Below, piece by piece: positions 3,046 through 55,054 of a stretch of DNA of 55,699 bases. The notes beneath the pieces were generated by a model. The model saw only the letters and a program-made list of their open reading frames with translations. It had not been told where the DNA came from and did not search any database. Within the stretch, counting starts at the first letter, position 1, and the number at the start of each line of letters is the position of its first letter. The DNA comes from a virus: the IMG/VR virus record IMGVR_UViG_3300037993_000081, positions 1 through 55,699 of that record. One strand, given 5' to 3'. Position numbers and translations under genes: made by a program.

Positions 3046-4505
3046 TATTGTGCGACCTTTGTCCAACTACTCTTATCAGCAGGATTGCCGCCAATGAAAC
3101 GGTATCCACCGTCTGTTGTTCCAATCGCCGGGACGTTACTCAGATTGAATGCTCCGTTGTAAGCGGCTTGCTTGGCATTCAACCACTCTCGCGCTCCGTC
3201 TACCATCTGCCGTATTAGGTCAGTAGGAAGCGCACCAGTTGTAGTGTCATTCGCCCATTGCTCGATTGTAGCCCCCCAACCGATCTTTTTAATGTAATCC
3301 AAGGCTTGTGTCGTGAAGCGTCCTGCACTAGCTCTTTCGAGAGCCACGGCAAGACGTTTCTGATTGAAAGCATCGTCTGGTTTACTAGCAACGTCATTCG
3401 CAGTCGTCATCAAACCTTTAGCATCGTCTAGTTCAGTTTGGGCTTTATTTTGAGAAGCCGTATTTTTGTGTCCGACTGGTGCTCCCTCAGATACCACGCC
3501 AGCGCCGTTTTTAGCTAACTTATTTTTCATCGCACCAACTTCTTTCATCTGCTGACCCGCTGGTTTTGTCGGCGTAGTTGGCTTGTTTGAACGTAATCCC
3601 GGAGGGGCTGGCGTGCCGCTCCCATGAATAAATTTCTGAGTTACTCCGCGCATGATTACTGGAACTTGATCCCCGTTAGCCTTGGTTACAATAACCACCC
3701 GATCACCCACCGTGCTTGCTTCCGACTGCATGGCCTTCCATGTCTCGTAAAAAGCCTTTTGCTCCGGCTTCATGTCCTTCCACGCTACAGGTGGATCGAA
3801 GGAATTACCGTAAGATTCAAGGCTTATTTCAGTGCTGGTTTCAGGCTTTGGTGGTTTTAGCGCTGGTTTCCATCCGGCGAGAACGTCTTCTGGAATATTT
3901 TGCCCTGCCGAATTAACGACATTAGAAGGATCAGCCTCTTCTCGGTAAATCGTCATCGGATTCCCGGCAGAATCAGTTCCGTCTTCCCGCTTAAACTTTG
4001 GCTTTGTCGGTTTCTCCTCAATTCCACCCTGTTTCTTTGCCCACGTCTCCGCTTGCTCTGGCGGTAAGTCTTTTCCCGTCGCTTCCTTCCAAATCTTCTG
4101 AAAGTCTTTGAACTTGTCTGGCTGTTGCGGTGCCGCCGCCGTCATCGACGCGACCGATGGCAGATTGTTGATTGGCTGCTTCTGGGTCGGCTCCTGTTGG
4201 CGAAACACATGCCGAAATAGTTTCTTGACTCGCCCAAGAGCGTCGGGATTGTTCGACGGATGCAAGAGTTGAAAGAGTTGGTCGCGCTCGCCACTGAGAG
4301 CCTTTGTCAGTTCGGGATCACCGGGATTCTGCCCGAGCTTTGCTTGAATGCCCTTCATGGTGTCTACGTGCATCTGTACAGCATCTTCCAGAGCTTCATC
4401 GGAGAGATTCTGTCGGCGCTGTTTCTGCGCTTCAATGCGGTTGACAACATCTCCCGCGCCCGCCGCTCCCGCAAAGCCTTCGACCAAACCCTCAAGAAGT
4501 GGCAT
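3045..4505 (-). CDS. Possible internal virion protein
   Basis: A 486-residue protein beginning MPLLEGLVEGFAGAAGAGD, coupled to the upstream gene by TAATG at 4505. It has a Gly/Ala-rich N-terminus, then long charged low-complexity and helical segments rich in K, Q, E and P, without cysteines, signal peptide or catalytic motif. Its size, its composition and its place between a small structural gene and a large PWEKYA protein match the internal core or ejection cassette of T7-like particles. That is inference, as sequence similarity to gp15/gp16 is not visible by eye. Confidence 0.45.
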   Translation of the reverse strand: MPLLEGLVEGFAGAAGAGDVVNRIEAQKQRRQNLSDEALEDAVQMHVDTMKGIQAKLGQNPGDPELTKALSGERDQLFQLLHPSNNPDALGRVKKLFRHVFRQQEPTQKQPINNLPSVASMTAAAPQQPDKFKDFQKIWKEATGKDLPPEQAETWAKKQGGIEEKPTKPKFKREDGTDSAGNPMTIYREEADPSNVVNSAGQNIPEDVLAGWKPALKPPKPETSTEISLESYGNSFDPPVAWKDMKPEQKAFYETWKAMQSEASTVGDRVVIVTKANGDQVPVIMRGVTQKFIHGSGTPAPPGLRSNKPTTPTKPAGQQMKEVGAMKNKLAKNGAGVVSEGAPVGHKNTASQNKAQTELDDAKGLMTTANDVASKPDDAFNQKRLAVALERASAGRFTTQALDYIKKIGWGATIEQWANDTTTGALPTDLIRQMVDGAREWLNAKQAAYNGAFNLSNVPAIGTTDGGYRFIGGNPADKSSWTKVAQ

Positions 4506-43294: not shown

Positions 43295-43498
43295 TCAATT
43301 CTCCTTGTGTCGTTCAACAAGAGCTTCAAATTCGTTCAGGTGACGCAGCGTTGGCCGGTAAGTACCCCTCTCGATGTACTGTACTGCTCTCTGGCTGATC
43401 CCGAGACACAAAGCCAACATCCCCTGACTCATTCTCTTCGCTTTCCTGAATCGGCGGAAGCGGACAGCGGCGGAGATCATGCGGATTGATTTCGGCAT
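43295..43498 (-). CDS. XRE-family (HTH_3) regulator
   Basis: A 67-residue protein. RFRRFRKAKRMSQGMLALCL then GISQRAVQYIERGTYRP is a Cro/CI-type helix-turn-helix (about residues 12-50). Starts at ATG 43498 with GGAAATGT upstream. A 16-bp palindrome at 43517-43532, 19 bases upstream of the start codon, matches sites elsewhere in the window (48711-48726, 52734-52749, 33661-33676), so self-regulation is plausible. It may be the phage repressor or an early-late switch. Confidence 0.7.
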   Translation of the reverse strand: MPKSIRMISAAVRFRRFRKAKRMSQGMLALCLGISQRAVQYIERGTYRPTLRHLNEFEALVERHKEN

Positions 43499-50618: not shown

Positions 50619-51413
50619 ATGTGCAAAGCCTTTAGCTGTATCGTTGACCGAAATGCCAAGGTCACTTGGAAACTAGGCGCGGATTCTCACGAATCCCTAC
50701 TCGCCCTAACTTCGTTGAAAGACAACACTGCCGATCCTGCTTTGATGACATTCGCAAGAGTAGAGATCACGCCAAAAAACGGCGATTACCTGTTCCCAGA
50801 CGTTTGGGAATTGAAAGTGGATCAAGCAATTACTCCAACTTGGTTCACCGAAAAGCACAGAACTGCGGCAACTGCTGCTCACGGAAAATGGTTAACAAAG
50901 CTCGACAAGTTTCTTGTGAGAAAGAAGATCGTCCATCCTTTCAATATCGTGCCTCCATCGGTCATCACAAAGCAGCATATCAATATGCTGCGGAAGTGGG
51001 CCAGCGTGCGGGACAGCGTGCGGGCCAGCGTGGGGGACAGCGTGGGGGCCAGCGTGCGGGACAGCGTGTGGGCCAGCGTGTGGGACAGCGTGCGGGCCAG
51101 TGTGTGGGACAGCGTGGGGGACAGCGTGGGGGACAGCGTGGGGGCCAGCGTGCGGGACAGCGTGTGGGCCAGCGTGTGGGACAGCGTGCGGGCCAGTGTG
51201 TGGGACAGCGTGGGGGCTTATATTGGATCATTTTTCATTTTGCCCGTCTGGAAATACGTTAAACATCCTCGCGACAAGTATCCGTTTGCGCCATGCGTTC
51301 AGCTTTGGAACATCGGCCTCGTTGCATCCTTTGACGGAGAGACATGGCGCTTGCATGGGCACAAGAATGCCAGAGTTCTATTTCAGATCACAGCGGAAGA
51401 TTTAAAGAAATGA
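50619..51413 (+). CDS. Protein with an 18-unit SV tetrapeptide repeat
   Basis: A 264-residue protein. N-terminal 125 residues hold a compact domain (MCKAFSCIVDRNAKVTWKLG, LMTFARVEITPKNGDYLFPD, FTEKHRTAATAAHGKWLTKL). Residues about 128-199 are 18 tetrapeptides of [AD]SV[RGW], 12 bp each. The C-terminus returns to globular sequence (HPRDKYPFAPCVQLWNIGLV). Such [A/D]SV[RGW] arrays appear in phage proteins of unknown function and may form a helical or beta rod. The gene is coupled to the next by ATGA. Confidence 0.55.
   Translation: MCKAFSCIVDRNAKVTWKLGADSHESLLALTSLKDNTADPALMTFARVEITPKNGDYLFPDVWELKVDQAITPTWFTEKHRTAATAAHGKWLTKLDKFLVRKKIVHPFNIVPPSVITKQHINMLRKWASVRDSVRASVGDSVGASVRDSVWASVWDSVRASVWDSVGDSVGDSVGASVRDSVWASVWDSVRASVWDSVGAYIGSFFILPVWKYVKHPRDKYPFAPCVQLWNIGLVASFDGETWRLHGHKNARVLFQITAEDLKK
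51000..51215 (+). repeat. 12-bp coding tandem repeat array (18 units)
   Basis: 18 units of 12 bases of the form gCCAGCGTGnGG/gACAGCGTGnGG encode [AD]SV[RGW]. Units 5-10 (51048-51119) and 13-18 (51144-51215) are identical, including a shared AGT variant in units 9 and 17. Unit number is likely to vary by slippage. Confidence 0.9.
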
Positions 51414-53589: not shown

Positions 53590-54093
53590 TCAAAAGGGAC
53601 ACTCCTGTACCATCCAATCCTCCGGCAAACTGCGATAGTGTGCCGGTGTCCCACCTTCCCGAGTAGCGTTCAACTCTTTGTACATCGTTATGTACTCATC
53701 GTTTATCGGCTTACGACCGTGGGTTTTACGAATCGCCGAAATCCGCTTAACCAGCCACATCACATCGTTCGAGTTGTACCCGGTATCGTCCAGCGAGCAG
53801 TCGCGTCCCTCGGGTTCGTTTTCTACAAACCATGTTCGGAGAAGTTGTAACAGGTCAGAAAGGGCGGGAAGTGTCTTGGCGTTGCGGCCCCAACTGTCTA
53901 AAGCCCATTCAATCGCTGCCACTGGGTAAGGCGCGAGATCGTTGAGTAACTGTTCCATTCGCTCGCCGCTCATTGACCTGCCCAAGCGCAGCGCCATTGC
54001 CGTTATTGCGGCTAAGATTTTCGAGGATTCTTCTAGCGGCCTGAGCAGTGTTTGTTGCATCACGTTCGTCGAACGTTTCGCCTGATTTGGCAT
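53590..54093 (-). CDS. Possible helicase-loader-like replication protein
   Basis: A 167-residue protein starting at ATG 54093 after a strong AGGAGAgacccca. Although its first 61 codons overlap the upstream gene, the ribosome site argues that this start is used. LGRSMSGERMEQLLNDLAPY, then AIEWALDSWGRNAKTLPALS, DLLQLLRTW resemble small phage replication loader-type proteins with an AL...W.R...LP.P/LSD pattern. An ATPase motif is absent. The role is inferred from composition and from its place in a two-gene pair. Confidence 0.45.
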   Translation of the reverse strand: MPNQAKRSTNVMQQTLLRPLEESSKILAAITAMALRLGRSMSGERMEQLLNDLAPYPVAAIEWALDSWGRNAKTLPALSDLLQLLRTWFVENEPEGRDCSLDDTGYNSNDVMWLVKRISAIRKTHGRKPINDEYITMYKELNATREGGTPAHYRSLPEDWMVQECPF

Positions 54094-54460
54094 TGGGGTC
54101 TCTCCTGAATCTGTCGTGATTGTGAACTATGTACTCATCCAGTCGGGGAAGCCAGTAACCCGGTCTCTGGCGTGCTGGGATGTCGTCCGACTGCGCTATG
54201 TTTTTCAGCGCTAGCGCAAAATCGCGGTCGGTCATGTTGGGATTTTCTTCGAGAAGGGATTTGAGTTGGCGTGCTTCCATCGGTCCCCATCTAGGGTCAC
54301 AGTCCCAAACCCAGTGGAACATGCGGAAGATGTAGTCCTTGAAAACTATGAAGCGCGTGTCTTTCGGTTCTGGACAAGTGAGAGAAAATTCCATTTTCCG
54401 ATCTTCTAGGTAATCATCAAACTCTATTGCTCTTTTGAGGTCTCTGTCTAGTGGGTGCAT
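53909..54460 (-). CDS. Possible replication initiator-like protein (O-like)
   Basis: A 183-residue protein with AGGAGCAAGATCAA before ATG 54460. RWGPMEARQLKSLLEENPNM, ALALKNIAQSDDIPARQRPG and YWLPRLDEYIVHNHDRFRRD recall the winged-helix-like phage replication initiators (LLxxNP, SDxxxRP, WLxxLxxY). No catalytic residues seen. It is the first gene of the leftward operon after the structured leader; its last 185 bases overlap the next gene. Confidence 0.4.
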   Translation of the reverse strand: MHPLDRDLKRAIEFDDYLEDRKMEFSLTCPEPKDTRFIVFKDYIFRMFHWVWDCDPRWGPMEARQLKSLLEENPNMTDRDFALALKNIAQSDDIPARQRPGYWLPRLDEYIVHNHDRFRRDPNAKSGETFDERDATNTAQAARRILENLSRNNGNGAALGQVNERRANGTVTQRSRALPSGSD

Positions 54461-54500
54461 TTGATCTTGCTCCTAAAAGTCATGCTTGATTCCAGAGCAG

Positions 54501-54528
54501 AGAAAAGGCTGGGTTAGGAGCCTTTTCT
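54501..54528 (-). promoter_or_regulatory. Perfect 10-bp hairpin at the end of the leader
   Basis: AGAAAAGGCT (54501-54510), 8-base loop, AGCCTTTTCT (54519-54528): a perfect hairpin, about 40 bases upstream of the start of the first operon gene. No clear T-run follows, so attenuation or RNA stability is more likely than a simple terminator. Confidence 0.55.
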
Positions 54529-54806
54529 AACCATGCTGTCATCCGTCGCGTGGTCAGAGTACAGTTGCCTTGGCTACCACTGGCCCCCGCAGGGGTCAAT
54601 CCCCCTAACGATGGGCAACGGCGTACACGCCTGCTGGCACCGACCGACACTCCCCGGAACAATCCTGGTTGCCTCGGCAGAATAATATTCTGGCAACTGG
54701 AAACCAAGTCGAATTTTCGAGAGGAGTCATGCGCCAGTGGTTCAGATGATCGGTTGGGCTGGTAGCTGGGAACCACTGGCGGTGAATTAACCAGCACGCC
54801 CAGCCC
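54529..54806 (-). ncRNA. Structured 5' leader with H-type pseudoknot topology
   Basis: Between the promoter at 54829 and the first gene at 54460. Stem b pairs CGCCAGTGGTTC (54732-54743) with GAACCACTGGCG (54770-54781), 12 of 12. Stem a pairs GGGCTGG (54756-54762) with CCAGCCC (54800-54806) and GCTGG (54765-54769) with CCAGC (54791-54795). The order b, a, b', a' is H-type, with a directly abutting b'. Further stems GTTGCC/GGCAAC (54668, 54691) and CAGAATaatATTCTG are visible. It does not resemble a riboswitch class that I know. A cis-acting regulatory RNA is inferred; the strand is inferred from the promoter. Confidence 0.55.
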
Positions 54807-54828
54807 GCCCGAACTCGGAACTGCCAAA

Positions 54829-54857
54829 ATTCTCCCCCAACTCGATTCCGTTGTCAA
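54829..54857 (-). promoter_or_regulatory. Leftward promoter of the replication-like operon
   Basis: TTGACA (complement of 54852-54857), 17 bases, GAGAAT (complement of 54829-54834; 4 of 6). It lies about 370 bases upstream of the first gene start, so the transcript has a long leader. Confidence 0.65.
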
Positions 54858-55054
54858 GAGCAAATTTGCATCTTTGAATTTTTTTGGCGCGGGGTCTGAG
54901 AGTTTTCCACAGCCTAAGTGATTGACGGTTGTTTGTTGGAGCCTACGCCCAAATTTCAGAAACAGGCGAAAGACCCTACGCCAAAATGAGAAATCGCCAG
55001 TGTTTATGCGGTCGAGGGGGCGAAAGCCAAAACTGCGTTTAGTAAAATGATCGT
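54858..55054. other. Gene-free divergent gap
   Basis: No CDS. Contains TTTTCCACA (54903-54911), one mismatch from the DnaA-box type TTATCCACA, and two CCTACGCC-AAA direct repeats in 54938-54985. TTGACG (near 54933) has no convincing -10. The rightward promoter for 55077 is not identified. Confidence 0.4.

Follow-up and report, generated by a model that had tools for sequence, protein, structure and literature searches.

A conserved pseudoknot leader, probably an RNA control element, in the early operon of related soil phages

Introduction

The leader of the rep gene of IncB/IncI-alpha plasmids contains a pseudoknot, next to the rep start codon, which controls the replication gene together with an antisense RNA. 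To our knowledge, very few pseudoknots in phage leaders have known regulatory roles. According to a 2010 review, T4 gene 32 was possibly the sole example of a viral pseudoknot in translational autoregulation (PMC3014915). RNA also acts on termination in phages: the put RNA of HK022 suppresses it by binding elongating RNA polymerase, with no need for a dedicated protein (PMC9378689), and satellite P4 represses its replication genes by attenuation through its CI RNA (PMC4825925).

Here we describe a leader found in an IMG/VR virus record (labelled G000; hereafter the window, meaning the whole stretch of 55,699 nt that was analysed). It contains an interleaved structure which, rather than arising by chance, is probably a genuine control element made of RNA and not described before.

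Genomes compared

The leader is also present in a near-identical contig, 3300037843_000167 (99.97% identical to the window over 10.4 kb, leader included), and in two relatives reached by protein searches, G002 and G001; the contigs G003–G005 end before the region. The comparison is made between three independent genomes: the window, G002 (60,542 bp; locus L022, 16587–17003), whose terminase is 87% identical to that of the window, and G001 (60,888 bp; locus L005, 4087–4699), whose operon proteins are 47–68% identical to those of the window. The G002 locus is syntenic: the homologous early operon flanks it on one side, and a ParB-like gene, an exonuclease and a RecT-like gene flank it on the other. 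Neither the DNA nor the operon proteins matched anything in phage records, and bacterial genome contigs contained no relatives of the two operon proteins.

With the terminase of Tunturi_1 and Tunturi_2, two isolated phages of an Acidobacteriota host, that of the window shares 28% identity, which suggests that the host of the window phage is acidobacterial; through the terminase, this group of dsDNA soil phages is related to Acidobacteriota phages. Acidobacteriota are among the most abundant soil phyla, and we know of almost no study of RNA control in their viruses. The two Tunturi phages were excluded from the count: the pseudoknot of Tunturi_1 is weak, Tunturi_2 has none, and in this region another promoter stands beside the gene.

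Regarding the rest of these genomes, Tunturi_2 has an HNH endonuclease gene in its early intergenic region (L031, 73–501), where Tunturi_1 has none. G002 encodes a tyrosine integrase (L022, 7661–8536; Pfam PF00589), which was not found in the window record, the near-identical contig, G001 or Tunturi_1. A small HTH_3 protein (about 74 aa, window 43337–43456), possibly a repressor, is encoded upstream of the terminase in the window and also in G002. A 264-aa open reading frame of the window (50619–51413) contains a short tandem repeat (SVRDSVWASVWDSVGASV...), and two more frames run open across it, a second one on the plus strand and one on the minus strand.

Promoter, leader and operon

The site is a divergent early intergenic region, in which the leader and its operon lie on the minus strand:

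54829..54857, minus strand: sigma70-type promoter TTGACA-N17-GAGAAT, which drives the leader (TTGACA 54857–54852, GAGAAT 54834–54829)
54461..54822, minus strand: untranslated leader of about 360 nt, without coding signal; the transcription start at about 54822 is an estimate
53909..54460, minus strand: first operon gene, 183 aa, whose C-terminal part is common to G001 and, weakly, G002
53590..54093, minus strand: second operon gene, 167 aa, with homologues in G001 and G002 (PHROG 6028, unknown function)

The promoter expected from a sequence-only reading of this DNA is thus present, directly upstream of the pseudoknot leader. G002 has a promoter TTGACA-N18-AATAAT at the syntenic place, aligned with that of the window, and the two sequences are conserved from the promoter through about +25 (Smith–Waterman score of the leader alignment 213, best of 300 shuffles 96). 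The G001 promoter, with a perfect −35 and a weak −10, was not called by the promoter scan. Beyond the promoter, the intergenic region of the window contains iteron- or operator-like repeats, TTTTGGCGCGGGGTCT (54882–54897) being inverted with respect to AGACCCTACGCCAAAA (54971–54986), with GAGCCTACGCCCAAAT at 54939, and a DnaA-box-like TTTTCCACA at 54903–54911.

The operon had been described as one of replication proteins. This label is plausible, comes mostly from context and is weakly tested. The first two proteins match no Pfam family and, among PHROGs, only families of unknown function; a sequence search of solved structures returned nothing for either, and their AlphaFold models have a confidence too low to be used. 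The first gene of G002 contains a stretch, HYE.NGW.VGK.PMK.WKA...W, which we take to be that found at the C-terminal ends of phage replication-initiation proteins.

The leader itself matches nothing in Rfam 15 at the gathering score (window, L003 and L005), a permissive Rfam search of the window leader gave nothing near that score, and ARAGORN found no tRNA or tmRNA. No coding signal or conserved frame was detected: stops and non-triplet indels separate the window from G002. A protein reading of the leader was rejected for lack of coding signal, as was a short AUG open reading frame directly after b (the 3' strand of S2, below) in the window and G002, whose frame is not conserved. The earlier suggestion of a frameshift-like element is not supported either, for lack of a coding signal or conserved frame.

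Anatomy of the pseudoknot in the window

The 12-bp stem (S2) and the 7+5-bp stem (S1) of the sequence-only reading are both present on the minus strand, where they interleave as a', b', a, b, and b' abuts a:

54809..54812, minus strand: optional basal S1 segment UCGG, pairing with CCGA 54750–54753
54800..54806, minus strand: S1 outer segment (a'), 5' strand GGGCUGG, pairing with 54756–54762; GGGUG/CACCC in G002
54791..54795, minus strand: S1 inner segment (a'), 5' strand GCUGG, pairing with 54765–54769; UUGGCG/CGCCAA in G002
54790–54782, minus strand: loop L1, 9 nt
54770..54781, minus strand: S2 5' strand b', CGCCAGUGGUUC
54756..54769, minus strand: S1 3' strand a, CCAGC (54769–54765), UA and CCAGCCC (54762–54756), abutting b' with no linker
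54755–54744, minus strand: loop L3, 12 nt
54732..54743, minus strand: S2 3' strand b, GAACCACUGGCG, forming 12 perfect pairs with b'
54697–54692 / 54673–54668, minus strand: GUUGCC/GGCAAC pairing
54576..54584, minus strand: second, partial copy of b', GCCAGUGGU, which could pair over 9 nt with b (P = 0.0075)
54501..54528, minus strand: 10-bp hairpin AGAAAAGGCU/AGCCUUUUCU, of weak terminator character, not called as a terminator

With L1 of 9 nt and L3 of 12 nt, the geometry permits the full pseudoknot if the basal S1 segment is open. The downstream 10-bp hairpin and the GTTGCC/GGCAAC stem had also been predicted and do occur on the minus strand; neither is clearly conserved in G002, so that conservation of the downstream hairpins is not supported. 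Within the 10-bp hairpin, the 5' arm together with the loop includes GCUCCUAA (54514–54521), a perfect 8-nt complement of UUAGGAGC (54469–54476), which is the Shine–Dalgarno region of the first gene; this pairing could hide the ribosome-binding site.

Conservation of the architecture

In G002, 29 nt after the promoter, we find in succession GGGUG-CU-UUGGCG, AAACUUC, UUCGCCGAGGUUCA, CGCCAA-CACCC, 18 nt and UGAACCUCGGCGAA. The strands follow the same order as in the window, again with no linker, and the full pseudoknot (L1 of 7 nt, L3 of 18 nt) is possible with the basal S1 segment open; the latter reads GCGG/CCGC, a U-A to G-C change.

The pairs of S2 were counted on a pairwise alignment of the window and G002 that is blind to structure, and not with a covariance model, because MAFFT misaligned the pseudoknot. 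Of the 12 pairs, 10 are unchanged, one is compensatory (U-A to A-U), one, an A-U pair, is deleted on both sides and none is broken (permutation P = 0.00065). The covariation that had been proposed as a check on the structure is seen here on few genomes: with three independent ones compared, one pair gives it formally. The letters of S1 differ between the two (GGGCUGG/CCAGCCC and GCUGG/CCAGC in the window, GGGUG/CACCC and UUGGCG/CGCCAA in G002), and the same alignment places S1 out of register (three broken pairs, two one-sided losses), so the support for S1 consists of the strength of the duplex in each genome and its identical position.

The leader of G001 has no sequence in common with that of the window in alignment. 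It reads UGACUCUCAGGACCGG, A, CUCAGCC, CCGGUCUUGGGAGUCG, GUAA and GGCUGAG, followed by an intrinsic terminator (4259–4290) just after the pseudoknot: the order is the same and the linker is again missing, with a different sequence. Its putative homology to the window element is argued from position, architecture (order and missing linker) and strength. Its L3 of 4 nt is too short for the 16-bp S1, and the full pseudoknot requires that basal S1 pairs open. The leaders of the window and G002 yielded no clear terminator.

Two further observations concern these leaders. The 178 nt from promoter to intrinsic terminator in G001 (L005, 4123–4300) fold with z = −6.05 and might form a small RNA in their own right. 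A second element, AATCCGGGC..CGGGC ... TACGTCCCGGTC, is shared by the leaders of G002 (L022, 16863–16917) and G001 (L005, 4519–4572), with a Smith–Waterman score of 96 (reached in 1 of 300 shuffles) and a hairpin GCUGC/GCAGC in one and GCCAG/CUGGC in the other; it was not recognised in the window.

Strength of the structure against chance

The pseudoknot scores used here are summed stacking energies without loop terms, not full pseudoknot free energies. Among perfect inverted repeats (loop ≤60), the 12-bp stem ranks first in length across the 55.7-kb window; 1 of 1000 leader shuffles attains it, while the S1 duplex is matched in none of 2000, in the window and in G002 alike. Within the first 120 nt of the window leader, the top pseudoknot beats all of 2000 dinucleotide shuffles, the first 120 nt of each of the three leaders giving the same 2000/2000; over the whole window leader it is reached in 1 of 300. 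When the window is scanned in 120-nt stretches, the pseudoknot site alone scores ≤ −40 kcal/mol, and in genome scans of the window, G002 and G001 no other pseudoknot-capable site is as strong as the leader. The fold of the whole window leader is only moderately above shuffles (z = −2.58), which indicates that the pseudoknot contributes most of the signal. Chance inverted repeats, short two-copy repeats being common, are extremely unlikely, since the top-ranked site occupies the same place in three genomes and shows a compensatory change.

In the window and G002 the opposite strand reaches an equal or higher score; G001 alone favours the transcribed strand. The strand assignment is set by the promoter, not by the folding energy.

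Proposed function and alternatives

The element is well supported; its mechanism we infer. In the three genomes the pseudoknot lies within about 15–45 nt after the promoter, with S1 of about 11–16 bp in segments and S2 of 7–14 bp. The suggestion of a cis-acting RNA holds for a conserved RNA located in cis, promoter, pseudoknot and operon recurring together in G002 and a pseudoknot of the same order in G001, and is not supported for frameshifting. The element may be an attenuator, or may bind a ligand or a protein. We consider it likely that the element is a cis-regulatory leader and, granted this, control at the level of elongation has about half of our confidence. The reading that we prefer, at about even confidence, is that of a cis-acting leader RNA in the early operon of soil dsDNA phages working as an attenuator or antiterminator. 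The nascent RNA would fold into the pseudoknot behind RNA polymerase, and the fold would set how much of the operon gets transcribed, whether through folding, alternative pairing of b or a bound protein. Elongation control is suggested by the terminator of G001, which sits between pseudoknot and gene. Direct blocking of ribosomes is disfavoured because the pseudoknot lies at least 270 nt upstream of the start codon (270 nt in the window, about 280 nt in G002 and about 480 nt in G001).

That distance also bears on a protein-binding operator, in which a phage DNA-metabolism protein would bind the pseudoknot and repress translation of its own operon, like T4 gp32. The pseudoknot does lead a probable DNA-metabolism operon, and the T4 gene 32 leader is the known viral precedent (PMC3014915). 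We nevertheless hold this to be unlikely, given that at least 270 nt of structured sequence precede the start codon here, against 67 nt in T4, and that no single-stranded-DNA-binding protein was identified in the operon.

In nested folds of the window and G002, the first nucleotides of the transcript, GUUC, pair with the part of b that is used in S2; in G001 a nearby 5' segment, CAGCC, does so. The full stems and the pseudoknot may therefore be mutually exclusive, and the leader could be a bistable switch that alternates between the pseudoknot and a long hairpin. The same low credence as for the operator goes to a further reading, in which such a switch would need no protein and competition for b would set early termination; if true, this would be an attenuation or immunity system of Acidobacteriota-linked phages, evolved separately from P4 CI and HK022 put.

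Somewhat more doubtful is RNA-based attenuation or immunity as in satellite P4 (CI RNA, seqA–seqC), in which b would take the part of seqB and cause early termination by pairing either with b' upstream or with a second copy downstream. P4 itself is the precedent for such control of replication genes; G002 encodes a tyrosine integrase, and further downstream b has a second perfect complement, of 9 nt in the window (P = 0.0075) and of 8 nt in G002 (P = 0.039). However, this copy is at unequal distances (148 nt in the window, 36 nt in G002) and not significant in G001, and no integrase was found in the window or G001.

Just as doubtful, in our opinion, is a 5'-terminal structure that would shield the mRNA from decay with no regulation. 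In each of the three leaders the structure begins about 10–45 nt after the estimated 5' end, as such a role would have it, yet a simple hairpin would suffice, while the interleaved order and the absent linker are kept in 3/3.

Last, it is very unlikely that the hairpins act in DNA, for example at an origin of replication or at a site of single-strand initiation. The divergent early intergenic region, with iteron-like repeats (54882–54986) and the DnaA-box-like sequence beside the element, the indecisive strand energies and the compensatory changes, which in inverted repeats would fit a DNA element too, speak for it; the structure is nonetheless directly downstream of a conserved promoter and in operon orientation in all cases, and that of G001 holds on the transcribed strand alone.

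As for the cis-acting leader RNA that we prefer, a recurring pseudoknot leader that belongs to no Rfam family would add a new family of regulatory RNAs, and the compact sequence of the element makes it directly testable.

Comparison with known systems

The inner S1 of G002, UUGGCG/CGCCAA, contains what we presume to be the hexamer of the IncB/IncI-alpha plasmid rep pseudoknot. The match is probably a coincidence: the pseudoknot is here far upstream, the hexamer is absent from the window and no antisense promoter was found.

The locus resembles gene 32 of T4, T2 and RB69 in that a phage gene for DNA metabolism (a probable one here) has in its leader an H-type pseudoknot with coaxially stacked stems (PMC3014915). 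In T4, however, the start codon comes 67 nt after the pseudoknot, with an A+U-rich unstructured spacer between, whereas the spacer of the window is structured and 271 nt long, and the stems are longer here.

Like P4, the window has a long untranslated leader, here before what may be replication genes, with a segment that could pair with others both up- and downstream (PMC4825925). P4 differs in its stable, processed CI RNA, the present leader being known from sequence alone, and the downstream copy is here moderately significant and variable in position.

HK022 put is an RNA of two successive stem-loops of about 70 nt, present on both early transcripts, whereas the stems of the window are interleaved and the long leader belongs to one divergent operon only. 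The likeness is that a folded RNA which acts in cis opens an early transcript: putL lies just downstream of PL (PMC9378689), and the three leaders likewise place the structure just downstream of an early promoter, about 10–45 nt from the estimated start.
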